Source of the DNA: Mitsuokella multacida DSM 20544
GTDB taxonomy: Bacteria > Bacillota > Negativicutes > Selenomonadales > Selenomonadaceae
DNA length: 64,000 nt
Direction of reading: 5' to 3'
Assembly: GCF_000155955.1 (NCBI RefSeq)
Contig: NZ_GG697141.2
Coordinates: 630,855 to 694,854, forward strand
Translations under genes and position numbers: made by a program
Shown: positions 3,001 through 40,864 of the stretch, piece after piece
Position numbering within the stretch: the first letter of the stretch is position 1
Layout: each line of letters starts with the position of its first letter
The notes under the pieces: model-generated
Database searches by the model: none
Seen by the model: only the letters and a program-made list of their open reading frames with translations
Told to the model about the DNA's origin: nothing

Positions 3001-4356
3001 AGTGGGGTCAAGGGCAAGGAAATCGCCGACGGCGACAGTGCGACGACGGCCATCGGCAAGCTCAACAATCGCATGAACGACATCTACACGACGGCTGGAC
3101 AGCATTCGTCGGTGTCGACGGCGGATACGAACTTGACGCTGAGCGAGAGCAAGAATACCTCGGGCGGCACGGATTACAAGATTGGCCTGAATAAAGACCA
3201 GATCAATCTCGGCAACCTGACGATCAAGGGCAATGAAGGCTCGATTGAGGCGAATTCCATCAAGTCCGACTCCTTCACGGCTGGCGATACGGTCGTCAAC
3301 AAGGACGGCATCAAAGTCGGCGATCAGTCGGCTCTGACGGGCGACTCGCTCAAGGTCAACGGCAAGACGTATGTCGACGACAAGGGCGTCAATGCCAATG
3401 GTCAGGTCATCCGCAATGTCGGTGACGGCAAGGATGACGGTGATGCGGTCAATGTCAAGCAGGTCAATGATTTGGCGGCAAGACAAGGCGAGGTCATCGG
3501 CCAGAATGCGGCGCACATCAATCAGCTCGACCGGGCGGTCAACCGTCTCGACTCGCGCATCAATCGCGTCGGCGCGGGGGCGGCTGCTCTGGCGGCCCTG
3601 CATCCGGGCAATTATGATCCGGACGACAAGGTCGACTTCGTGGCGGGCTTCGGCAATTACCGCGGCGCGAGTGCGGCGGCTGTCGGCATGTACTACCATC
3701 CGGATGAGACGACGACGATGTCGGTCGGCGCAAGCTTTGGCGGCGGCGAGAACATGGTCAACGCCGGCATCACGTGGAAGATGGGCAAGGACTCCGGCCA
3801 CATGCGCACGCAGGCAGCAACGAAGGCAGTTCCGGTACAGTTTGTAGCAGCTCCGACGCAGACGACGCAGCCGACTGGCCAGACAGAGGGCACGAAGACG
3901 CCGCAGCCGGTCACGGCTGTGACGACGACGGCCAGCGGCCAGCAGGTGCCGATCGTGGCGGCGTATCTGCCATCGGTCGACAATTCGACGCGGGCGGAGA
4001 ATGACGAGCTCAAGGAACTCTTGGCACGCCAGACGGCCATCCTCGAGAAGCTCGCGGAGCAGAAGACGGCGGCCGCTCCAGCTGCTGCGGCTGCGCCGGT
4101 CAGCGGTGAGGACCTCTTCCCCGATGTGCCGGAGAACCACTGGGCTTACGACTTTGTCGCGAAGGCGGGTGCGCTCAAGGACTGCCGCGTCGAAGCCCCG
4201 GCGAACAATCCGATGCTCACGCGCAACGACTTCGCCCAGATCCTCTACACGGCGCTCAAGAATGGTGCGACGAAGAACCCTGCACTCAACAAGGACAACG
4301 GACTCAACCGTCTTGCAAGTGAGTTCCGAGTTGAGCTCAAGAATGTCAAACGCTAA
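1..4356 (+). CDS. Trimeric autotransporter adhesin (YadA-like), 5' partial, with C-terminal SLH-like domain
   Basis: The frame is open from base 1, so the N-terminus (signal peptide and head) lies outside; 1451 residues are visible. The passenger is a Gly/Thr/Asn/Asp-rich stalk with repeated YadA head/neck motifs, including three copies of a GLxNxxW...RAATExQL block (near nt 1410-1490, 1895-1970 and 2600-2670) and a DAVNVxQL neck near nt 260 and 3440. A coiled coil (nt 3475-3575) leads into a YadA anchor domain (about nt 3580-3785). Unlike classical YadA proteins the chain does not end there: a Thr/Pro/Gln-rich linker, a short coiled coil (nt 3995-4060) and an SLH-like domain (FPDVPxxHWAYDFV, about nt 4108-4300) follow. 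Inferred role: surface adhesion, with the SLH tail in the periplasm binding peptidoglycan. Confidence 0.9.
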   Translation, partial: NVGVVTSTDTNGNATLTVKLNKDINLGENGSVTTGSTLMNKTGITNGNMSLGADGLTIQNGPKFTNNGINAANQKVTGVANGTNPNDAVNVSQLEAVKSDVTTGWTIAGKNASGTDLTANIGKGKTVSYAGGKYATATLSVDSTTGNATVAVDAVTNTLSVGADGKITSNGDGLTTTGAVKDAINGAYWTIQAGNATGSAQKVSAGSTITFNAGSNLSLSQDGTNFTYALNTDLQNMTSVTAKDQKDNTAVLTGEGLKVSDKDGNSLTQHATEIRLHDATKTATGTTTDVVLNKQGLQNGGHTITGVANGTVDAGSQDAINGSLLYELQQKVTNATNTGATVSYTAQTASLTTTDGKAALTGTTDGLVTGTNLTSVLNSLSWTAQSSQVGSGQNNGSTLQSITAGSKVGFIAGNNMILTQDGTNFTYALNSSLTGMNTIAFTGLGSGASNLTIGLQNGGGANPDKGYYITGLSNTKWDQSNYEGTRAATEAQLREAIDKVSAATGTGGFGLTADEGANNGGEKKVSQTLGRTIAIQGDGTYGADGTVVKQGNISTVAYTDNAGPTGAIKVKLNKDIDLSEAGSLTIGASKVSAGSIVLDNTGDAAKKIALNSTAGTASIGGVTVNGTAKTIMGLANTTWDGTAVSGRAATEDQLAKAISDASTQASNSELHIRKGTYGVGKDKDGQYLADPKGKNSVSIDVVNAKGAVDGQVVINDVAKASELGTVGELADNLKNPNGGPTTVVQAVNKVNQKVDDSLKQVNGDVTNAVTEAKKHTKVQSVDSDNNVTIDGTTTNADGGTVYKLGLNKQHMNLDKVHIYGTEGKVTAKDVEAETVKTGNTTVADGRVVVGGDNGIKIEANDGQQTILGLSNRTWNGRAVSGRAATEDQLQQAVENATATAAQNEQHIQAGNYNVGLGKGLDGKAIDKNSVAINVVSGDGTKPGDVKGQVVINNVAKADELGDVAKLNDTVKNADGRPTSTVDAINNLDKRVETTVGDNVYSGVKGKEIADGDSATTAIGKLNNRMNDIYTTAGQHSSVSTADTNLTLSESKNTSGGTDYKIGLNKDQINLGNLTIKGNEGSIEANSIKSDSFTAGDTVVNKDGIKVGDQSALTGDSLKVNGKTYVDDKGVNANGQVIRNVGDGKDDGDAVNVKQVNDLAARQGEVIGQNAAHINQLDRAVNRLDSRINRVGAGAAALAALHPGNYDPDDKVDFVAGFGNYRGASAAAVGMYYHPDETTTMSVGASFGGGENMVNAGITWKMGKDSGHMRTQAATKAVPVQFVAAPTQTTQPTGQTEGTKTPQPVTAVTTTASGQQVPIVAAYLPSVDNSTRAENDELKELLARQTAILEKLAEQKTAAAPAAAAAPVSGEDLFPDVPENHWAYDFVAKAGALKDCRVEAPANNPMLTRNDFAQILYTALKNGATKNPALNKDNGLNRLASEFRVELKNVKR

Positions 4357-4375
4357 GCAGATTGCATAAAGACTG

Positions 4376-4417
4376 GCCCTCGTATGGATTCCTTTGGGGA
4401 TCCGTACGAGGGCTTTT
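4376..4417 (+). terminator. Intrinsic terminator of the adhesin gene
   Basis: A 9-bp perfect stem (GCCCTCGTA at 4376-4384 with TACGAGGGC at 4405-4413), extended inwards by GGAT/ATCC, is followed by TTTT. It lies 20 bases after the stop codon. Confidence 0.85.
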
Positions 4418-4578
4418 GCTGTTGCAGGACTTTGGGAGAATAAAAAATCTTTCTGTTCAAAAGAGGATTCCGAACGTATGAGTGCGAATACTACAGGTAA
4501 GAGACAATAAGAGCAATGTGTATCTAATAGGAAGACAACCAATACAAATGTATCACAACTGTATAAGGGGGCATTTCT

Positions 4579-6192
4579 ATGCGACTCGAATTCTTAGGTG
4601 CGGCTCATACGGTCACGGGTTCCTGCTATCTGCTCGAGACGGGCGAGGACCGCTATCTGATCGACTGCGGCATGTTCCAGGGCTCAAAGCGCATCCGTGA
4701 GTACAACTACGAGGAGTTCTCGTTCAATCCGGCGGACATCGATGGCGTGCTCTTGACGCATGCGCATGTCGATCACTGCGGCCTTGTGCCGAAGCTCGTG
4801 CGCGAGGGATTCAAGGGGACGGTCTACGCGACGCAGGCGACCTGCGACCTCGCCAAGATCATGCTGCCCGACTCGGCACATATCCAGGAGTCGGACGCTG
4901 AGATGCTCAACCGCAAGGGACAGCGCCGCGGCGATGCGCCGGTCGAGCCGCTCTACGGCATCAACGACGCGCTCGACGCGCTCAAGCAGTTCTCTCCGGT
5001 CCCATACGACCAGGAACTGCACCTGTCCGACAACCTGCGCGTTTTCTTCCGCGATGCGGGCCACATCCTCGGCTCGGCCATCCTCGAAGTCTACGTGAAG
5101 GAGAACGGCAAGGAGACGAAGCTCGTCTTCTCGGGCGACCTCGGTCAGCCCGACCAGCCGATCCTGCGCGACCCGACAATCATCCACGGCGCCGACTTTG
5201 TCATCACGGAGTCGACGTACGGCGACCGCCTGCACCAGCTCTACGACAAGGAGACGGCGCTCATTGAGATCGTCAATGAGACGATGGACCGCGGCGGCAA
5301 CCTCATCATCCCGTCGTTTGCTGTCGGCCGCACGCAGACGCTTCTCTACTATTTCTTCCGGCTGCACCGTGAGGGACGCCTCGACCCGGACATCCCAATC
5401 ATCATCGATAGTCCGCTGGCCATCAATGCGACGCGCGTCTTCCTCAAGAACTTCCGCGATTTCGACGAGGATGCGCTCAAGGTCTTCGGCAAGAATGGCA
5501 AGGTGCCGGATTTCCCGCAGGTCCGTCTCTGTGAGACGGCGGCGGAGTCGCGCGCACTCAACTCGTCGGAAGGCTCGGCCATCATCATCTCAGCGTCGGG
5601 CATGGCCGATGCGGGCCGCGTGCTGCATCATCTCAAACACAACCTCTGGCGTCCGGAGTCGACAATCCTGTTCGTCGGCTACCAGGCGGAGGGGTGCCTT
5701 GGCCGCCGGCTCATCGACGGCATCACGCGCGTGCGCGTGCTCGGCGAGGAAATCGCGGTCAAGGCGCAGATCAAGAGCCTCGACGGCTTCTCGGCTCATG
5801 CCGACGCCAACCAGATCATGAGCTGGCTCGGCGAGATCACGAGCCCGAAGCCCGCGAAGATCTTCATCGTCCACGGCGAAGCGACGGCGCAGGGCGCGCT
5901 CAAGAGCCGCATCCAGAAGGAGCTCGGCATCGAGTGCTACGTGCCGTTCCGCGGCGATCTCGCGAAGATCACGGGCCGCACGGCGGAGATCATTCCGTCG
6001 AACATCCCGGCGGTCTCGGTCGAGAAGGAGATGGAGGACGTGCTGCGCGACTTCGACTCCGACTACCGTCAGCTGCGCCGCCGCGTCATGCACTATGTCG
6101 TGCGCCAGCCGAAGATGATGGAGCCGGTCATCAAGGTCATGAACAAGGCGCGCAACTACATCCGCAAACTCTTCACGCCGTTCAACATCTGA
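4579..6192 (+). CDS. Beta-CASP metallo-beta-lactamase fold hydrolase (Ysh1/CPSF-like ribonuclease family)
   Basis: 537 residues. The metallo-beta-lactamase signature THAHVDHCG lies near residues 60-68. It is followed by FSGDLG, an ESTYGDR segment, the beta-CASP region (SFAVGRTQTLLYY; IISASGMADAGRVLHHL) and a C-terminal DGFSAHAD...VHGE pair, the usual RNA-specificity motifs of this family. The likely role is an RNA exo- or endonuclease in the cytoplasm; substrate specificity cannot be read from sequence. The last 50 residues are basic. ATG at 4579 follows a strong AAGGGGG ribosome site. It stands alone between terminators, with no obvious operon partner. It is not a canonical RNase J, lacking that family's layout. 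Confidence 0.85.
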   Translation: MRLEFLGAAHTVTGSCYLLETGEDRYLIDCGMFQGSKRIREYNYEEFSFNPADIDGVLLTHAHVDHCGLVPKLVREGFKGTVYATQATCDLAKIMLPDSAHIQESDAEMLNRKGQRRGDAPVEPLYGINDALDALKQFSPVPYDQELHLSDNLRVFFRDAGHILGSAILEVYVKENGKETKLVFSGDLGQPDQPILRDPTIIHGADFVITESTYGDRLHQLYDKETALIEIVNETMDRGGNLIIPSFAVGRTQTLLYYFFRLHREGRLDPDIPIIIDSPLAINATRVFLKNFRDFDEDALKVFGKNGKVPDFPQVRLCETAAESRALNSSEGSAIIISASGMADAGRVLHHLKHNLWRPESTILFVGYQAEGCLGRRLIDGITRVRVLGEEIAVKAQIKSLDGFSAHADANQIMSWLGEITSPKPAKIFIVHGEATAQGALKSRIQKELGIECYVPFRGDLAKITGRTAEIIPSNIPAVSVEKEMEDVLRDFDSDYRQLRRRVMHYVVRQPKMMEPVIKVMNKARNYIRKLFTPFNI

Positions 6193-23807: not shown

Positions 23808-23906
23808 AGCAGCGGGATGCAATGCTTACACCGCAGCCTGATGGCTTTCGTCCGGCTATCAACTCCCCGTATACCCGGCACTTAACGCATAAACACCTAC
23901 TCTGCT
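23808..23906 (-). promoter_or_regulatory. Tetrahydrofolate (THF) riboswitch
   Basis: Read on the minus strand, the conserved blocks occur in order: GCGTTAAGTG, GGGGAGTT, CGAAAG, GCGGTG and CATTGCATCCC, matching the THF-I aptamer pattern. P1 is AGCAG (23902-23906) with CTGCT (23808-23812); P2 is TGTTTA with TAAGCA. Between aptamer and folT a strong hairpin (CATTGGTACGCG with CGCGTACCACAATG, about 23724-23757) sits just before the ribosome site and is the likely expression platform. Confidence 0.85.
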
Positions 23907-31423: not shown

Positions 31424-32695
31424 TTGAGAAAGAATAGTCTCATCAAACTCATTGTCTGCATCGTGGCCATCGTCGGCATATTCCTTGCCTTCGTCAAGCC
31501 TTTGGCCAACTCCATACGCCAGGGCCTCGACCTGCAGGGCGGCACGCATGTCGTGCTCGAAGCCGAGGACACAGATGTAGCAAAAGTCAACGATGATGCG
31601 ATGAACCGCGTCGTCACCATCATGGAGAAGCGCGTCAACGCGCTGGGCCTCACCGAGCCAATCATCCAGCGTGAGGGCGAGCGCCGCGTCATCATCGAGC
31701 TGCCGGGCGTCAAGGACCCGGATGCCGCTATCAAGACCATCGGCAAGACGGCTATGCTCGAATTCAAGGATGAAGAGGGCAACACGGTGCTCACGGGTAC
31801 CGACCTCAAGGACGCACAGGCCGCGACGAATCAGCAGAACGGCCAGAACGTCGTCAACCTCGAATTCACGGATGAGGGCGCGAAGAAGTTCGCCGACCTC
31901 ACGACGAAGAACGTCGGCCGTACGATCGCCATCCTGCTCGATGGTGAGGTGCTGACGGCACCGAATGTCCGCGAGCCGATCCTCGGCGGCAAGGCCGAGA
32001 TCTCGGGCCAGAAGACGCTCGAAGAGGCGCAGAATCTTGCCGTCGTCCTCCGCAGCGGCGCGCTGCCGGTCAAGGTCAACATCATCGAGACGCGCACGGT
32101 CGGCCCGACGCTCGGACAGGATTCCAAGGATAAGTCGGAATTCGCCTTTGCCGTCGGCCTCGGCGCAGTCCTCTTATTCATGATCCTCTTCTACCGCATG
32201 TCGGGCTTCATCGCCGACATCGCCCTGATGGCCTACACGATCATGCTGCTCGGCCTCTTGTACCTGCTCGATGCGACGCTGACCCTGCCGGGTGTCGCCG
32301 GTATCATCCTGTCCATCGGTATGGCCGTCGACGCGAACGTCCTCATCTTCGAGCACTTCAAGGAAGAGTACCAGATCCAAGGCAAGACGCTGCGCCTCTC
32401 GATGGAGTCGGGCTTTAAGCGCGCCTTCACGACGATCTTCGACTCGAACATCACGACGATCATCGCCGCAGCCGTCCTGTTCTTCCTCGGCACGGGCACG
32501 ATCCGCGGCTTCGCCATCACGCTGGGCCTCGGCACACTGCTCTCGATGTTCACCGCCATCACGCTGACGCATTACATGCTCAAGCTCATGGTCGACTCCA
32601 AGCTCTTTGAGAAGCCGGGTGCCTATGGTGTTACGGGCTTCATGCTCTGGAAAAAAGAGGATCTGAAAAAGGAGGATTTGAAGAAGGATGCTTAA
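31424..32695 (+). CDS. secD: Protein translocase subunit SecD
   Basis: 423 residues. Membrane protein that uses the proton gradient to assist Sec export. N-terminal helix, LDLQGGTHVVLE motif (about residues 27-38), periplasmic P1 domain, then five helices with the DxGVAGIILSIGMAVDANVLIFE-type signature (GIILSIGMAVDANVLIFEHF in part, near residue 292). TTG 31424 lies ten bases after AAAGGG; the upstream in-frame ATG has no ribosome site. It overlaps secF by 8 bases. Confidence 0.94.
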   Translation: MRKNSLIKLIVCIVAIVGIFLAFVKPLANSIRQGLDLQGGTHVVLEAEDTDVAKVNDDAMNRVVTIMEKRVNALGLTEPIIQREGERRVIIELPGVKDPDAAIKTIGKTAMLEFKDEEGNTVLTGTDLKDAQAATNQQNGQNVVNLEFTDEGAKKFADLTTKNVGRTIAILLDGEVLTAPNVREPILGGKAEISGQKTLEEAQNLAVVLRSGALPVKVNIIETRTVGPTLGQDSKDKSEFAFAVGLGAVLLFMILFYRMSGFIADIALMAYTIMLLGLLYLLDATLTLPGVAGIILSIGMAVDANVLIFEHFKEEYQIQGKTLRLSMESGFKRAFTTIFDSNITTIIAAAVLFFLGTGTIRGFAITLGLGTLLSMFTAITLTHYMLKLMVDSKLFEKPGAYGVTGFMLWKKEDLKKEDLKKDA

Positions 32696-33602
32696 ATTCG
32701 ATATAGCAGGTCATCGGAAAATCTGGTTCCTCATTTCCGCTTTGATCATCATCCCGGGCCTCATCTGCATGGCCGTCCGCGGGTTCAACTTCGGTATCGA
32801 CTTCACCGGCGGTACCATCATTGACCTCAAGTTCAGCCAGCCGGTCAGCATCGCAGAAGTCCGCACGAGCCTCGCAAAGTACGACCTCGACGATGCGACC
32901 ATCCAGCTGTCGGGCGCACAGTCCGACGTCAAGGAATCGGAAGACGTCATGATCCGCACGCGCGACCTCGAGGAGGACCAGCGCAAGGAAGTCATGGCGA
33001 CACTCAAGACGGATGTCGGCGACTATCAGGTCCTGCGTGAAGAGAAAGTCGGTGCAACGATCGGCGGCGAGCTCATCACGAACGCCGTCCTCGCCCTCGT
33101 CGTCTCGTGGGCCTTGATTATCCTCTACGTCGCATACCGCTTTGAGCTGCGCTTCGGCATCGCCGCCGTCCTCGCGCTCATCCACGATATCCTCATCGTG
33201 CTCGCGGTCTTCTCGCTGACGCAGCGCCAGATTGATTCCTCGTTCATCGCGGCACTGCTGACCATCGTCGGTTACTCGATCAACGATACGATCGTCATCT
33301 TCGACCGCATCCGCGAAAACCTCAAGCTGCACTTCCGCCGCGGCGGCAACATCGACGAGCTCGTCAACCGCAGTATCTATCAGACGCTGACGCGTTCGCT
33401 CTACACGGTCTTCACCGTCCTCTTCACGACGGCCGCCCTCTACTTCTTCGGTGGCGACACGACGAAAGACTTCGCGTTTGCCCTGCTCGTCGGCTTCACC
33501 GTCGGCTGCTACTCGTCGATCTTCATCGCGAGCCCGCTCTGGATTGTCTTCCGCAACTGGGGCGAGAAGAAGAAGCACCAGCCGAAACCAGAGGCTGCGT
33601 AA
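32688..33602 (+). CDS. secF: Protein translocase subunit SecF
   Basis: 304 residues. Partner of SecD, six membrane helices. GIDFTGGTIIDLKF near residue 40 and VGYSINDTIVIFDRIRENL near residue 195 are the family signatures. It begins inside the secD end after AAGAAGG. Followed by a strong terminator. Confidence 0.95.
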   Translation: MLKFDIAGHRKIWFLISALIIIPGLICMAVRGFNFGIDFTGGTIIDLKFSQPVSIAEVRTSLAKYDLDDATIQLSGAQSDVKESEDVMIRTRDLEEDQRKEVMATLKTDVGDYQVLREEKVGATIGGELITNAVLALVVSWALIILYVAYRFELRFGIAAVLALIHDILIVLAVFSLTQRQIDSSFIAALLTIVGYSINDTIVIFDRIRENLKLHFRRGGNIDELVNRSIYQTLTRSLYTVFTVLFTTAALYFFGGDTTKDFAFALLVGFTVGCYSSIFIASPLWIVFRNWGEKKKHQPKPEAA

Positions 33603-33622
33603 AATCGCATATTGGATTTTTC

Positions 33623-33653
33623 AAGAGACTGCTGCTGAGGCAGTCTCTTTTTT
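33623..33653 (+). terminator. Terminator of the yajC-secDF operon
   Basis: AAGAGACTGC (33623-33632) with GCAGTCTCTT (33640-33649), followed by Ts to 33653. Confidence 0.92.
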
Positions 33654-33687
33654 ATATTGCACCATCCGCTTTCGATTGACATCGGAG

Positions 33688-33876
33688 CAGGGGGCGGGGG
33701 CTGTATTTCAGCTTCGTCGCTCCGTTGAATGGGCCCCATGTCACGCCTTCTATTCTAGCAATTTCGCCGCCTGCCGCGGTGTTCTGACATCGCCGTGTCA
33801 AGAAGACGCTGTATCGGGGCCCAGCCCTGCGGGCAGTCACTGTGCTCCTGCAGGTGAAATACAGCCCCCGCCCCTG
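33688..33876 (+). repeat. Structured repeat element A, about 190 bp
   Basis: Arms at 33688-33710 and 33855-33876 are inverted repeats of one another (G-rich run then CTGTATTTCA), differing by one G. The body shares blocks with element B in the opposite orientation: TTCGTCxCTCxGTTxAATGGxCC, TTCGCCGCCTGCC and CCCTGCGGGCAxTCAC. No convincing gene lies inside. Confidence 0.85.
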
Positions 33877-33980
33877 AGTCCATGCGTGACAGTCGCTTTG
33901 AGCTCCATGCAGTTGCGTTTCTTAGTTCCTATGTGATGCAGGTCTGCGCTTGAGAGCGGCTCGGGGCTCGAAAGTAACTG

Positions 33981-34166
33981 AGCAGGGAGGGTACCATTCC
34001 GCTTGCAGGAACGGCGTGATTGCCCGCAGGGATGGGCCGCTCCGTGTACTTGCTGGGCCACGGATGAAGGAACGCCGTGGCAGGCGGCGAATGGGCTTTG
34101 GGGATGCGAAGGGTACATGCGGTCCATTTAACAGAGTGACGAAACCGGAATGGTACCCTCCCTGCT
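33981..34166 (-). repeat. Structured repeat element B, about 186 bp
   Basis: Arms at 33981-34001 and 34146-34166 are a perfect 21-bp inverted repeat (AGCAGGGAGGGTACC...). Read on the minus strand the body aligns with element A block by block, but the arm sequence differs from A's arms beyond the first bases. Each copy thus keeps self-complementary ends with its own sequence. Confidence 0.85.
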
Positions 34167-34189
34167 ACGATAATCTTTCACGAGTCTGG

Positions 34190-34230
34190 TGCGTCCGCGA
34201 CAAAGCTGAAATACATCCCCCGGCCCATTG
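34190..34230 (-). repeat. Partial third copy of the repeat family
   Basis: Minus strand CCGGGGGATGTATTTCAGC then TTTGTCGC matches one arm and the adjoining body of element A, with a single-base difference in the arm and another in the body. It stops beside element B. The 33654-34386 interval holds only these repeats and the recJ promoter region; short frames through it are not supported. Confidence 0.7.
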
Positions 34231-34335
34231 CCAATAGTTTCTCGATGAGAGAATATCAATGCCGCGAATCCCATATAAATTTTAGTTGTCATGTTTTGGC
34301 TTTTCCTGTATGATAGAGAGAAACATTGTAAACTA

Positions 34336-34344
34336 TGATATAAT
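34336..34344 (+). promoter_or_regulatory. Extended -10 promoter of recJ
   Basis: TGATATAAT (34336-34344), a TGnTATAAT extended -10 element; no good -35 box. The leader to recJ is about 35 nt. Confidence 0.5.
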
Positions 34345-34386
34345 ATAGATAACGTAAATGCACAAGGTAACAAAGAGGGATACGAG

Positions 34387-36393
34387 TTGTATAAGAAGTG
34401 GAAATTGTATGAGCCGGTGCCGGAGCTAGCGGCGTTTGCGCAGGAGATTGGCCGGGATACGACGGTGGCGGCGCTCCTCTGGCATCGCGGCATCCGCACG
34501 CGCGATGCGGCGGAGCTCTTCCTGCATCCGGAGCGGCTGCCCTTTGCTGACCCGTTCGCGATGCGCGATATGGACAAGGCCGTCGCGCGCATCCAGAAGG
34601 CATTGGCGCAGGGTGAGCACATCACGGTCTACGGCGACTACGATGTCGACGGCATGACGGCGACGTCGCTTCTGACGCGGACGCTGCGCAAATTCGGCGC
34701 GAAGGTGGACTTCTACATCCCCGACCGCATGACGGAAGGCTACGGCCTCAACCGCCGGGCGCTCGAGGAGATTGCGGAGCAGTCGGACCTGCTCGTCACG
34801 GTGGACTGTGGCATCGCCTCAGTCGCGGACGTCGCGGCGATACAGGGCGCCGGCAAGCTCGACATCATCATCACAGACCACCATCTGCCGGGCAGTGAGC
34901 TGCCGCCCGCCTGCGCGGTGCTCAACCCGCATCGCGCGGACTGCCCGTATCCCGACAAGGACCTCGCGGGCGTCGGCGTCGCCTTCAAGCTCTGCCAGGC
35001 CCTTGCCGCTGCGCGGTCGGGGAAGCTGTGGGACGGCCAGTCGGCCTTTACGGATGACCTCGAGCTCGTCGCGCTCGGCACGGTCGCAGACATCGTGCCG
35101 CTGCGCGGGGAGAACCGCCGCATCGTCAAGCAGGGCATGGCCCGCATGGAGGCGACTGCACTGCCGGGCGTCGCGGCGCTCGTCGAGGTCGCGGGGCTCA
35201 AGGACAAGAAAATCACGGCGGGTCATCTCGGCTTCTTGCTCGCGCCACGGCTCAATGCGGCGGGGCGCATCGAGTCGGCGCGCACGGGTGTCGCACTCCT
35301 GACGGCGGAGGACCGCGCGCAGGCCGACAAGCTCGCGCTCGAGCTCGACGCGCTCAACACGGAGCGGCGCGAGATTGAGAGTACCATCTGCCAGACGGCG
35401 GAGCAGGAGCTCGAGTCCCTCGACATGGCGGAGACGAAAGCCATCGTTGTCGCGGGCAAGGGCTGGAACCCCGGCGTCATCGGCATCGCAGCATCACGGC
35501 TCGTCGACAAGTTCTACAAGCCGACCATCGTGCTCTCCGTGCAGGAGGACGGCATCTGCCGCGGCTCGTGCCGCAGCATCGAGGGGCTCAACATGTACGA
35601 GGCGCTCTCGGCCTGCAAGGAGCATCTGCTGCAGTTCGGCGGCCACGCGATGGCGGCTGGCCTCTCGCTGCGCGAGGAGGAGCTTCCCGCGTTCCGCGCG
35701 GCGTTTGCCGCCTATGCGGGCGCGCATCTCTCGGAGGAGGACTACGAGCCGAAGGTCTCGGTCGAGTTCGAGATGATGCCGGAGGAACTGACGCTTGACC
35801 TCGTCGAGGAGCTTTCGCTGCTCGAACCGTACGGCATGGGCAACCCCAAGCCGTATTTCGGCTGCCGCAATGTGCGCGGCCGCGAAGCGATGGCCATCGG
35901 GCGCGAGCAGAACCACCTGCGCTTCAAGCTCGGCACGGAGGATGCACCTGTGACGAGCCTGATGTGGAACCGCGCTGACCTCGCCGCCGCGGTCAACCGC
36001 GAAACACTCGACGTCGTCTACGCGCCAGCCATCAATGAGTGGAACGGGCGCCGCAGCCTGCAGTGCATGGTCGAGGACCTGAGCCCTGCACAGAGCGAGC
36101 GCGTCTTCCCCGAGAAGGAACTCTTGCGCGATATCTACCGCTACCTCTACGCCATGCAGAGGGGGCAGGGACTGATTCCCTTTGACACAGCGGCGCTCAC
36201 AGCAGGTTTTTGCCAGTCATTCCATCATATTTCGCAGTATACGATGGGTGCGGCCTTGCGCATTTTCCAAGAATTAGGTATCCTAAGAGAGAATCTCAAT
36301 GAAAATCGCTATTATTTGCCACCCGTTCAGGGCAAGCAGGGAAAGATGGAACTGGACGCTTCGCCGACGTACCGGCGGCACAAGGTCATCTGA
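34387..36393 (+). CDS. recJ: Single-stranded-DNA-specific exonuclease RecJ
   Basis: 668 residues. 5'-3' exonuclease used in recombination and repair. DHH-family motifs in order: YGDYDVDGMTATSLL (about residue 82), VTVDCGIAS (138), ITDHHLPGSELPP (160), LGTVADIVPL (237), then the DHHA1 domain with GHAMAAGLSL (about 419) and an OB-fold. Longer than E. coli RecJ by about 90 residues at the C-terminus, as in Firmicutes. TTG start after AGAGGGA. Confidence 0.93.
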   Translation: MYKKWKLYEPVPELAAFAQEIGRDTTVAALLWHRGIRTRDAAELFLHPERLPFADPFAMRDMDKAVARIQKALAQGEHITVYGDYDVDGMTATSLLTRTLRKFGAKVDFYIPDRMTEGYGLNRRALEEIAEQSDLLVTVDCGIASVADVAAIQGAGKLDIIITDHHLPGSELPPACAVLNPHRADCPYPDKDLAGVGVAFKLCQALAAARSGKLWDGQSAFTDDLELVALGTVADIVPLRGENRRIVKQGMARMEATALPGVAALVEVAGLKDKKITAGHLGFLLAPRLNAAGRIESARTGVALLTAEDRAQADKLALELDALNTERREIESTICQTAEQELESLDMAETKAIVVAGKGWNPGVIGIAASRLVDKFYKPTIVLSVQEDGICRGSCRSIEGLNMYEALSACKEHLLQFGGHAMAAGLSLREEELPAFRAAFAAYAGAHLSEEDYEPKVSVEFEMMPEELTLDLVEELSLLEPYGMGNPKPYFGCRNVRGREAMAIGREQNHLRFKLGTEDAPVTSLMWNRADLAAAVNRETLDVVYAPAINEWNGRRSLQCMVEDLSPAQSERVFPEKELLRDIYRYLYAMQRGQGLIPFDTAALTAGFCQSFHHISQYTMGAALRIFQELGILRENLNENRYYLPPVQGKQGKMELDASPTYRRHKVI

Positions 36394-39320: not shown

Positions 39321-40864
39321 CGGCAGTACATGCAGGGACCCAAGAGGCAAAGCTGACGGTCCGGACATTCACGCTCAACAACCGCAAGGAGATCATCTCG
39401 AAGATTGTGCGCGAGGTGCTCGTGCTCTTCAAGGTGGAAACCGTGGGGCGCCAGGGCGAGGCCGACTACCTGCAGCTCTCCGTCATCAACCACCGCCTGC
39501 CCGACACCGAGGACGGGCGCGTCGTCATCGAGTCGAAGCTCATGCTCTTTGACCTCGCAGGCCACGCCACTTCTTTTGTGCGGCGCGGCACGGGAGCACT
39601 CGACGAGCGCGAGGGCGCGGCGGTCAACCGCCTGATCAAGCTCAATCTCTACCATATCTTCTGCGAAGAACTCGATATGCCCCAGGCACCCTGGGGCATT
39701 CTGCATGGCGTGCGCCCGACGAAGATCGTACACCGCTGGATCCGCGGCGGCATGGGGGAAGAAGATATCATCGAGCGCCTGCAGTCGGACTACGCCTGCA
39801 GCGAGGCAAAGGCGCGCGTCATCGTGCCGATGGCGTTCCGCCAACTGCCATTCCTCGCGCAGTCGGACGAAAAGACGGTCAGCGTCTACGTCGGCATCCC
39901 GTTCTGCCTGACGCGCTGCCTCTACTGCTCGTTCCCGTCGAACATCCTGCCGGGCAAGAAGCGCATCGCGGAGTTCATGACTGTCCTCGAGAAAGACCTG
40001 CTCGCGGCCAAAAAGGCCATCGACCACTACGGCTTCCGCGTGCAGAATATCTACGTCGGCGGCGGCACGCCGACGAGCCTGCCGGATGAAGCCTTTGCCG
40101 AAATGCTCAATATGGTATATAATGCTTTCTATGGGCCCTCTATCGTGGAGTTCACGGTGGAGGCGGGCCGTCCGGACAGCATCACGCCCGCGAAGATCGA
40201 GATGATGAAGCGCCTTTCCGTCTCTCGCGTCAGCGTCAACCCGCAGACGATGCAGGCAAAGACGCTCCACCGCATCGGCCGCCAGCACACGCCGGAAGAC
40301 GTCGTCACGATGTTCCACGCGCTGCGTGAGGCCGGCATCCCGCACATCAACATGGACCTCATCCTCGGCCTGCCAGGCGAGACGGCCGAAGATGTGCGCG
40401 ACACAATGGAGAAGGTCACGGCGCTCGGACCGGACGACATCACGCTGCACGCCCTGGCCCTCAAGCGCGGCTCGCGCCTGCGCCTCCTCATGGAGGACCA
40501 GCACGTCGAGCTGCCGTCCGACGAGGAGACGCGCCGCATGTCGGAAGTTGCGATGGCCTATGTCGAGAAGCTCGGCATGCGCCCGTACTACCTCTACCGC
40601 CAGGGCTACATGAGCGGCGACCTCGAGAACGTCGGCTGCTGCCGCGCCGGTGCGGAAGGCATGTACAACATCCAGATCATGGAGGAGCACCAGACCATCA
40701 TCGGCATCGGCGGTGCGGCGACGACGAAGGGCGTCGATTTTCGCAGGAAGCGCATGAAGTCCTCGTTCAACGCGAAGGACCTCGTGACGTACCTGCGCGA
40801 CATCGATATCTACATCGAAAAGCGCCGCGCGCTTCTCGACGAAGCGTACGGCAATCCATCATAA
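39317..40864 (+). CDS. hemZ: Coproporphyrinogen dehydrogenase HemZ-like radical SAM protein
   Basis: 515 residues. Radical SAM enzyme with CLTRCLYCSF (CxxxCxxC, nt 39904-39933), GGGTPTSLPD and an N-terminal HemZ-type extension of about 190 residues. It belongs to the HemN/HemZ group, and its position before hisS-aspS is the usual Firmicute arrangement. Catalysis of coproporphyrinogen oxidation by HemZ is not firmly proven, so the assignment is by family. GTG 39317 overlaps the preceding stop and lies seven bases after GGAGG. Confidence 0.82.
   Translation: MTAVHAGTQEAKLTVRTFTLNNRKEIISKIVREVLVLFKVETVGRQGEADYLQLSVINHRLPDTEDGRVVIESKLMLFDLAGHATSFVRRGTGALDEREGAAVNRLIKLNLYHIFCEELDMPQAPWGILHGVRPTKIVHRWIRGGMGEEDIIERLQSDYACSEAKARVIVPMAFRQLPFLAQSDEKTVSVYVGIPFCLTRCLYCSFPSNILPGKKRIAEFMTVLEKDLLAAKKAIDHYGFRVQNIYVGGGTPTSLPDEAFAEMLNMVYNAFYGPSIVEFTVEAGRPDSITPAKIEMMKRLSVSRVSVNPQTMQAKTLHRIGRQHTPEDVVTMFHALREAGIPHINMDLILGLPGETAEDVRDTMEKVTALGPDDITLHALALKRGSRLRLLMEDQHVELPSDEETRRMSEVAMAYVEKLGMRPYYLYRQGYMSGDLENVGCCRAGAEGMYNIQIMEEHQTIIGIGGAATTKGVDFRRKRMKSSFNAKDLVTYLRDIDIYIEKRRALLDEAYGNPS

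Follow-up and report, generated by a model that had tools for sequence, protein, structure and literature searches.

The stretch of DNA analysed here (the window, 64,000 nucleotides of the 2.58-Mb genome of Mitsuokella multacida DSM 20544, G000) carries the genes secF (32688-33602) and recJ (34387-36393), and the gap between them bears repeats. Among the matches listed for the SecF protein, the nearest relatives are from Selenomonas, at up to 83% identity. The gap contains two convergent modules, A and B, and a partial copy, detailed below; the minus strand of A is its putative folding orientation, and the search model R1 reads along the plus strand (R2 being a second model, from another genus).

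33624..33653, plus: terminator-like hairpin and T run after secF, recognized by eye
33676..33684, plus: TTGACATCG, directly upstream of A; variants of ACATCG precede part of the copies
33690..33875, minus (putative folding strand): module A, 186 nt; R1 185.4 bits on plus, R2 77.6 bits on minus, fold z -9.18 on minus
33691..33713: first arm of A's helix P1, 23 nt, 96% complementary to 33852-33874; P1 columns covary
33730..33737: first arm of A's inner helix P2, pairing with 33816-33823; both-side changes in 6 of 8 pairs (helix 4)
33765..33781: helix 5 of A, a conserved hairpin (CGCCGC..GCGGYG); 95.5% of cells paired, no compensated change, 10 unpaired cells
33816..33823: second arm of A's inner helix P2, with the covariation of helix 4
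33824..33834, minus: small hairpin of A, closed by a C(GNA)G triloop when read on minus
33852..33874: second arm of A's helix P1, partner of 33691-33713; covarying P1 columns
33876..33980: spacer of 105 nt between convergent modules A and B, a layout also found in G017 and G050
33981..34166, plus (putative folding strand): module B, 186 nt; R1 158.8 bits on minus, R2 70.0 bits on plus, fold z -5.68 on plus
34197..34226, minus: partial copy, the initial 30 nt of the module in model orientation, 90% complementary to 33691-33720

Modules A and B face one another 105 nt apart. With A as query, the window is matched at 34170-33987 on the other strand (E 9.1e-14), in agreement with an earlier sequence-only reading in which two elements of opposite orientation share body blocks. 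That reading had also described arms that are complementary within each element and differ between the two, which holds: the arms of B (33981-34004 and 34143-34166) are 24 nt long and 96% complementary, those of A 23 nt and 96%. The partial copy, in B's orientation, indeed shows the further arm variant it had been credited with, and it is moreover the inversion partner of A's left end, the breakpoints falling in this repeat pair. In A, the hairpin at 33765-33781 is followed by a conserved stretch with GACATCG, a word that occurs 40 times in the whole window against 19.6 expected, above all 100 shuffles.

Fold z-scores were -9.18 for the minus strand of A, -7.58 for its plus strand, and -5.68 for the plus strand of B, with none of 200 shuffles as stable in each case; these values, together with 38 full-length copies genome-wide, exclude a chance origin of the A/B pattern. 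The repeat matched none of 4227 Rfam families at the gathering score, and a search of 33600-34400 at E up to 10 returned only OrzO-P and MIR839, far below threshold. The sole Rfam match above threshold in the window is a THF riboswitch at 23808-23906 (minus strand, 88.6 bits).

The genome-wide search with a covariance model that the sequence-only reading had proposed was carried out with R1, built from 37 aligned copies of G000 (alignment A1), and yielded 38 full-length copies of 139 to 188 bits, the 38th having been found later with R1 itself. The next best match (72 bits) is a remnant whose middle is deleted (L028:1198-1263), with an intact copy at the same place in G001 (L079), and two further weak matches are reverse-strand matches of true copies; there is no continuum of decayed copies. 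In the window's genus, R1 matched 39 times in G000, 28 in G001, and 3 in G002; among 41 genomes including its own, 6 had any match, with none in the 16 from other families. In another genus, g16, matches occurred in 18 of 21 genomes, with up to 68 in one genome. R1 found nothing at E up to 0.05 in 38 named Negativicutes loci around secF, and blastn gave no match that would indicate a plasmid or phage origin. The only R1 match of G047 (L235, ~4232-4420) lies in DNA resembling the flanks of the G000 copy L021:7565-7750; by eye its arms no longer look complementary, which may reflect decay in the absence of activity of the family.

The genome G022, from a different genus, has at least 16 copies of the same plan with little sequence in common outside the core. 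Built from G022 copies alone, the model R2 detects A at 77.6 bits (E 2.6e-19) and B at 70.0 bits (E 2.6e-17); no other match in the window is significant, the next one (40196-40279, minus, E 0.059) being probably due to chance. On 200 genomes of the class, R2 matched in 5, all of the window's family, which is a lower bound; R2 is weak for g16, with one weak match in G050 and none in G017, G041, G044, G051, and G053. Two G022 copies (L091:1529-1800 and 4781-5052) share a near-identical insert of ~90 to 100 nt in the left part of the module.

The module is under constraint to fold into a long terminal helix (P1) formed by the arms, conserved internal loops, an inner helix (P2), and small hairpins. 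Across 37 copies, both-side changes that preserve pairing occur at 30 of 44 pairs (shuffled mean, 18.0), the both-side-changed paired cells numbered 228 against 58.8 in shuffles, and the covariation score was 0.401 against 0.133, none of 500 shuffles being as high in any of these measures; paired cells made up 94.2% against 79.8% in shuffles, and six slide controls (1 to 3 columns) gave 20 to 39 both-side-changed cells. The covarying pairs lie in helix 1, that is, the arms (20 of 23), and in helices 2 (2 of 2), 3 (1 of 2), 4 (6 of 8), and 6 (1 of 3). No compensated change was seen in G000 for the hairpin at 33765-33781 (helix 5), which has 10 unpaired cells; G022 has in its stead a GCGAC/GTCGC hairpin in which compensation does occur. 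All 37 copies retain the same two mismatches within the helix, at columns 22/180 and 25/177. The same architecture came out of a separate alignment of 13 of the 16 G022 copies, three longer ones being left out.

Since the 37-copy alignment and the structure derive from the same sequences, and since the copies are related so that shuffles overstate significance, the comparison of orthologous copies carries more weight. It covers 15 same-place pairs of G000 and G001 out of 23 orthologous rows; in the 8 omitted rows the one-to-one match is unclear or a copy is cut or rearranged, and several of these lack matching arms. Identity was 97.8% in the core (805/823), which comprises the columns at least 90% conserved among G000 copies, including one partner of each pair, a definition that favors a high figure; it was 92.5% in P2 (222/240), 88.6% in P1 (505/570), and 61.0% in the variable loops (420/688). 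In P1, 20 both-side changes kept Watson-Crick pairing, 22 one-sided and 1 both-side change broke the pair, and 1 led to G.T; P2 had 6 compensated changes and 5 broken pairs. In B, for instance, GGTACCATT in G000 became GGAACCCTT in G001, with both arms altered.

Altogether, the complementarity of the arms is selected, the letters of P1 and P2 being free as long as pairing holds, and most copies keep the conserved core in place. The sequence-only reading had suspected as much for the arms, and the 30 covarying pairs, unmatched in 500 shuffles, and the 20 compensated P1 pairs of the orthologs support it. It had regarded random arm changes in further copies as evidence to the contrary: nearly all copies keep pairing, the exceptions being L003, whose arms pair at 13 of 21 positions, and the inner copies of the L031 tandem and three G001 copies (L067:1621, L069:1458, and L072:1453), in which a matching arm is missing.

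The changes that broke pairing bear on which strand folds. One-sided changes in the orthologous pairs produced 20 A.C, 2 G.T, and 13 other combinations (P = 0.0001 on the assumption of independence, which does not fully hold), and within 58 copies of G000, G001, and G002 the counts were 28 A.C, 12 G.T, and 22 other (P = 0.017), in both cases from related copies with shared ancestry. Folding of the plus strand, as RNA or ssDNA, should tolerate G.T over A.C and the opposite is observed, which favors the minus strand. In G022, the consensus energy is -48.6 for the minus strand and -38.4 for the plus strand, and both-side changes affect 23 of 46 and 18 of 43 pairs, respectively; the difference in energy comes from five additional P1 pairs on the minus strand, of which two are mostly wobble. 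There, G.U pairs are kept on the minus strand at column pairs 15-175 (GU in 8 of 13) and 18-172 (UG in 9 of 13). Read on minus, the small hairpin carries a GNA triloop in 31 of the 36 G000 copies that could be read and in all 17 rows readable among the 19 of the g22 set (of these 17, 16 come from G022 and 1 from G017), and a UNCG tetraloop on the plus strand was rejected, as the stem register misfits while the minus-strand triloop fits. Folding energies in G000 favor neither strand: 20 (RNA parameters) or 21 (DNA parameters) of 37 single copies have the lower energy on plus, which is not significant, and consensus energies are -122.8 plus and -127.2 minus for RNA and -85.5 plus and -85.1 minus for DNA. 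A constraint on one strand, the minus strand in model orientation, is well supported, and it is very probably this strand that folds; in the window it would apparently be the minus strand for A and the plus strand for B, each element being ~186 nt, which amends the sequence-only reading. The folded minus strand is quite probably also the working form and, if so, would act as single-stranded DNA (ssDNA) slightly sooner than as RNA.

Species differ at fixed loci in whether a unit is there and in which direction it lies. At secF-recJ, the entire A-B segment is inverted in G001 with both flanks collinear, a reading as inversion based on an alignment that runs through the spacer. The breakpoints lie in the inverted repeat TATTTCAGCTTCGTCGC, made up of A's left end and the partial copy, and in G001 the 3' arm matches the arm that the inversion brought to face it, down to a change in run length. 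Of 18 G001 loci with a match among the G000 loci, 3 are inverted (secF-recJ, L023/L075, and L031/L076), and deletions or other rearrangements distinguish the two genomes at L070/L030, L078/L032, and L079/L028. One g16 locus, compared in nine genomes, is empty in G058 and G059, filled one way in G050, G051, and G017 (as far as the G017 contig goes, since it ends inside the unit), filled in the opposite orientation in G057, G053, and G044, and occupied by other DNA in G060. At this locus, independent insertions in either direction are possible.

Beside single copies, L023:1640-1879 and L031:1540-1720 contain, by eye, a second kind of long-armed repeat with arms GGGGATG.CCGGGCAA and TTGCCCGG.CATCCCC and inner arms around T and A runs; the one in L023 belongs to the inverted segment, and this kind of repeat may be a partner module of another family. 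At L019:1691-2468 of G000, ~700 bp beside a copy are missing at the G001 locus and read by eye like part of a gene for an ATP-binding protein.

The basic unit is the module of 186 nt, two of which, convergent and with a short spacer between them, frequently make up a mobile unit. Convergent pairs account for 42 of 60 matches in G050 (21 pairs and no divergent pair within 1 kb, counted by hand) and for 12 of 38 copies in G000 (6 pairs), the other 26 being single or tandem. In G017, 15 aligned module pairs measure 433 to 760 nt between outer module ends, and most of these units have near-constant short terminal inverted repeats (TIRs), AAATTGCAGTTT-like, outside the variable arms (L104 lacks them). 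In the window's genus, only ACATCG-like words were noted, and a search for the TIR pattern with at most one mismatch in two genomes, G017 and G050, returned only short units and lone ends. The empty site of G058 and G059 was aligned to the filled sites, and the flanks are too diverged for a target-site duplication to be read. Of the ends typical of miniature inverted-repeat transposable elements (MITEs), which the sequence-only reading had opposed to structure, near-constant TIRs occur in most aligned G017 units and no target-site duplication is established; the contrast it drew between mobile element and structure falls away, as the family is mobile and inverting and most aligned g16 units carry such TIRs. 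The spacer of many G017 units (e.g., L110:1201-1692) contains a near-palindrome, ACAAGNACATCGATGTNCTTGT, seen by eye. Terminator-like sites stand just ahead of some other copies as well, and at one site the empty g16 genomes lack the terminator present at the filled site; this closeness was seen by eye, and we claim no targeting.

The 38 copies of G000 are flanked by 18 convergent, 20 codirectional, and no divergent gene pairs, against 6 convergent, 40 codirectional, and 5 divergent among the 51 neighboring gene pairs of the window under the same gene rule; the G022 copies have 1 convergent, 12 codirectional, 2 divergent, and 1 unclassified flanks, gene calls following a simple composition or length rule, with some weak. 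For 9 of 38 copies, A included, the minus strand is antisense to the gene on either side. The 40 nt preceding the start of the minus strand contain a -10-like signal in 7 of 16 G022 copies against 8.1 when shuffled and in 1 of 37 G000 copies against 3.3, so that a sigma-70-like -10 box beside the module is not above shuffles.

Several known systems resemble these repeats in part. Earlier work describes REPINs as inverted hairpin pairs away from divergent promoters, with compensatory stem changes (PMC3116915), places REP elements mainly between convergent or unidirectional genes (PMC3733652), reports strand-specific recognition of folded ssDNA by TnpA-REP (PMC8266576), and mentions G.T pairs in REP stems (PMC3116915, PMC3733652, PMC8266576). 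The present family shares with REP, BIME, and REPIN elements the intergenic hairpins, inverted pairs, compensated stems, and a similar preference for gene flanks. Unlike the REP palindrome of 20 to 50 nt preceded by GTAG, however, the module is 186 nt long with several helices and conserved internal loops, and the 5' flank of the folding strand, inspected by eye, ends with GTAACT-like words in part of the G000 copies and not with GTAG. REPs are moreover associated with RAYTs, whereas Y1_Tnp (PF01797), which we take to cover RAYTs, had no match at E up to 0.001 in five repeat-rich genomes (G022, G041, G050, G051, and G057), with 5 matches in G000 and 14 in G001. Judged from these sequence features, the family is outside REP/REPIN, since its size, the lack of the GTAG tag, and the absence of the transposase from repeat-rich genomes all set it apart.

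MITEs are likewise short, dispersed, and free of a transposase, and the TIRs of most aligned G017 units and the empty sites at one locus recall them, but the module arms covary instead of being conserved, and no autonomous partner or clear duplication was found. HEARO and omega RNAs are structured, multicopy, and linked to mobile DNA; in contrast to these and to Rfam RNAs, the repeat has no Rfam match, and the TnpB family had no match in G022, G041, and G051. Integron attC sites are imperfect palindromes that conserve structure more than sequence and are used as folded single strands, but the present module is far longer and has a core of its own. Reverse transcriptase (RVT_1, PF00078) had no match in six repeat-carrying genomes (G000, G001, G017, G041, G044, and G057, with 22 to 52 R1 matches each), which speaks against a group II intron or other element borne by a reverse transcriptase. 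As universal mobilizers, RAYT-type Y1 transposases, reverse transcriptases, and TnpB were each rejected, being missing from repeat-rich genomes. Openly licensed literature on Selenomonas and Mitsuokella or on compensated MITE repeats yielded no earlier description, which is weak evidence of absence; the reports that it does contain concern IStrons (Selenomonas) and a guanidine-IV riboswitch variant (Mitsuokella).

We propose, at slightly better than even confidence, that these are apparently nonautonomous mobile intergenic repeats whose folded strand is recognized in trans as ssDNA. The folded single strand would be bound by a trans-acting enzyme, as a transposase recognizes the REP hairpin, and this recognition would allow units to spread and flip; the absence near divergent promoters may reflect target choice together with the loss of harmful insertions. 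Mobilization in trans is suggested by analogy, from the REPIN-like layout and the strand-specific ssDNA recognition by TnpA-REP. The main weakness of this proposal is that the in-place constraint on most copies exceeds the need of a selfish element. It suggests a function for the host or as RNA, and a structured RNA would account for it better. The copies could instead be RNA genes carried by a mobile unit, the minus strand being transcribed, from an unseen promoter or by read-through, into a multicopy structured RNA acting in the cell or in its own spread. The multihelix fold, the invariant mismatches, the purine-rich internal loops and GNA triloop of the minus strand, the G.U pairs kept on that strand in G022, and copies that are mostly constrained in place and intact or deleted rather than decayed all speak for this possibility, which we hold to be real but short of probable: no -10-like signal exceeds shuffles upstream of G022 or G000 copies, modules occur in both orientations at a single locus and are inverted from one species to another, in 9 of 38 copies the minus strand lies antisense to the two neighboring genes, and Rfam has no match. 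Mobile ssDNA and structured RNA stand nearly level as readings.

Two other accounts fare less well. Ordinary MITEs of the TIR type, with arms kept matching by template switching or conversion during replication and with no selection on folding, would fit the near-constant AAATTGCAGTTT repeats outside the modules of most aligned G017 units, and the rematched G001 arm after the secF-recJ inversion is explicable by one copying event. Copying would erase the two mismatches that are nonetheless invariant in 37 of 37 copies, and the covariation of the short inner helices 2 to 4, the 97.8% in-place identity of the core, and the strand bias also make this account improbable; arm copying may add to selection and does not replace it. 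More improbable still is a DNA cruciform, which the sequence-only reading had named beside a structured RNA; both strands would be extruded and act on supercoiling or as a protein site. Its arms would be the long near-perfect ones observed, the module partly matches its own reverse complement, and the spacer of g16 units holds the palindromic ACATCGATGT, but a cruciform would constrain both strands alike and leaves unexplained the 20 A.C against 2 G.T and the better folding of one strand in G022.

Our analysis describes a repeat that differs in scale from REP-type repeats, which are short and linked to a single kind of transposase, the present module being several times longer. A long repeat that has internal loops like those of a structured RNA, is fold-constrained at dozens of loci, and flips between species would represent a folded-ssDNA substrate of a new kind or else a new structured RNA of unusually high copy number. 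Moreover, as arm complementarity changes at one locus in sister species, the order of compensatory steps may be traced. A further, though unlikely, hypothesis is a bacterial counterpart of SINEs: an undescribed structured RNA of ~186 nt with genes that are spread by a mobile and invertible unit, in many cases as a convergent pair. If true, its sequence would diverge freely while the fold is kept in nearly every copy, and one bacterial family would harbor dozens of working copies per genome.
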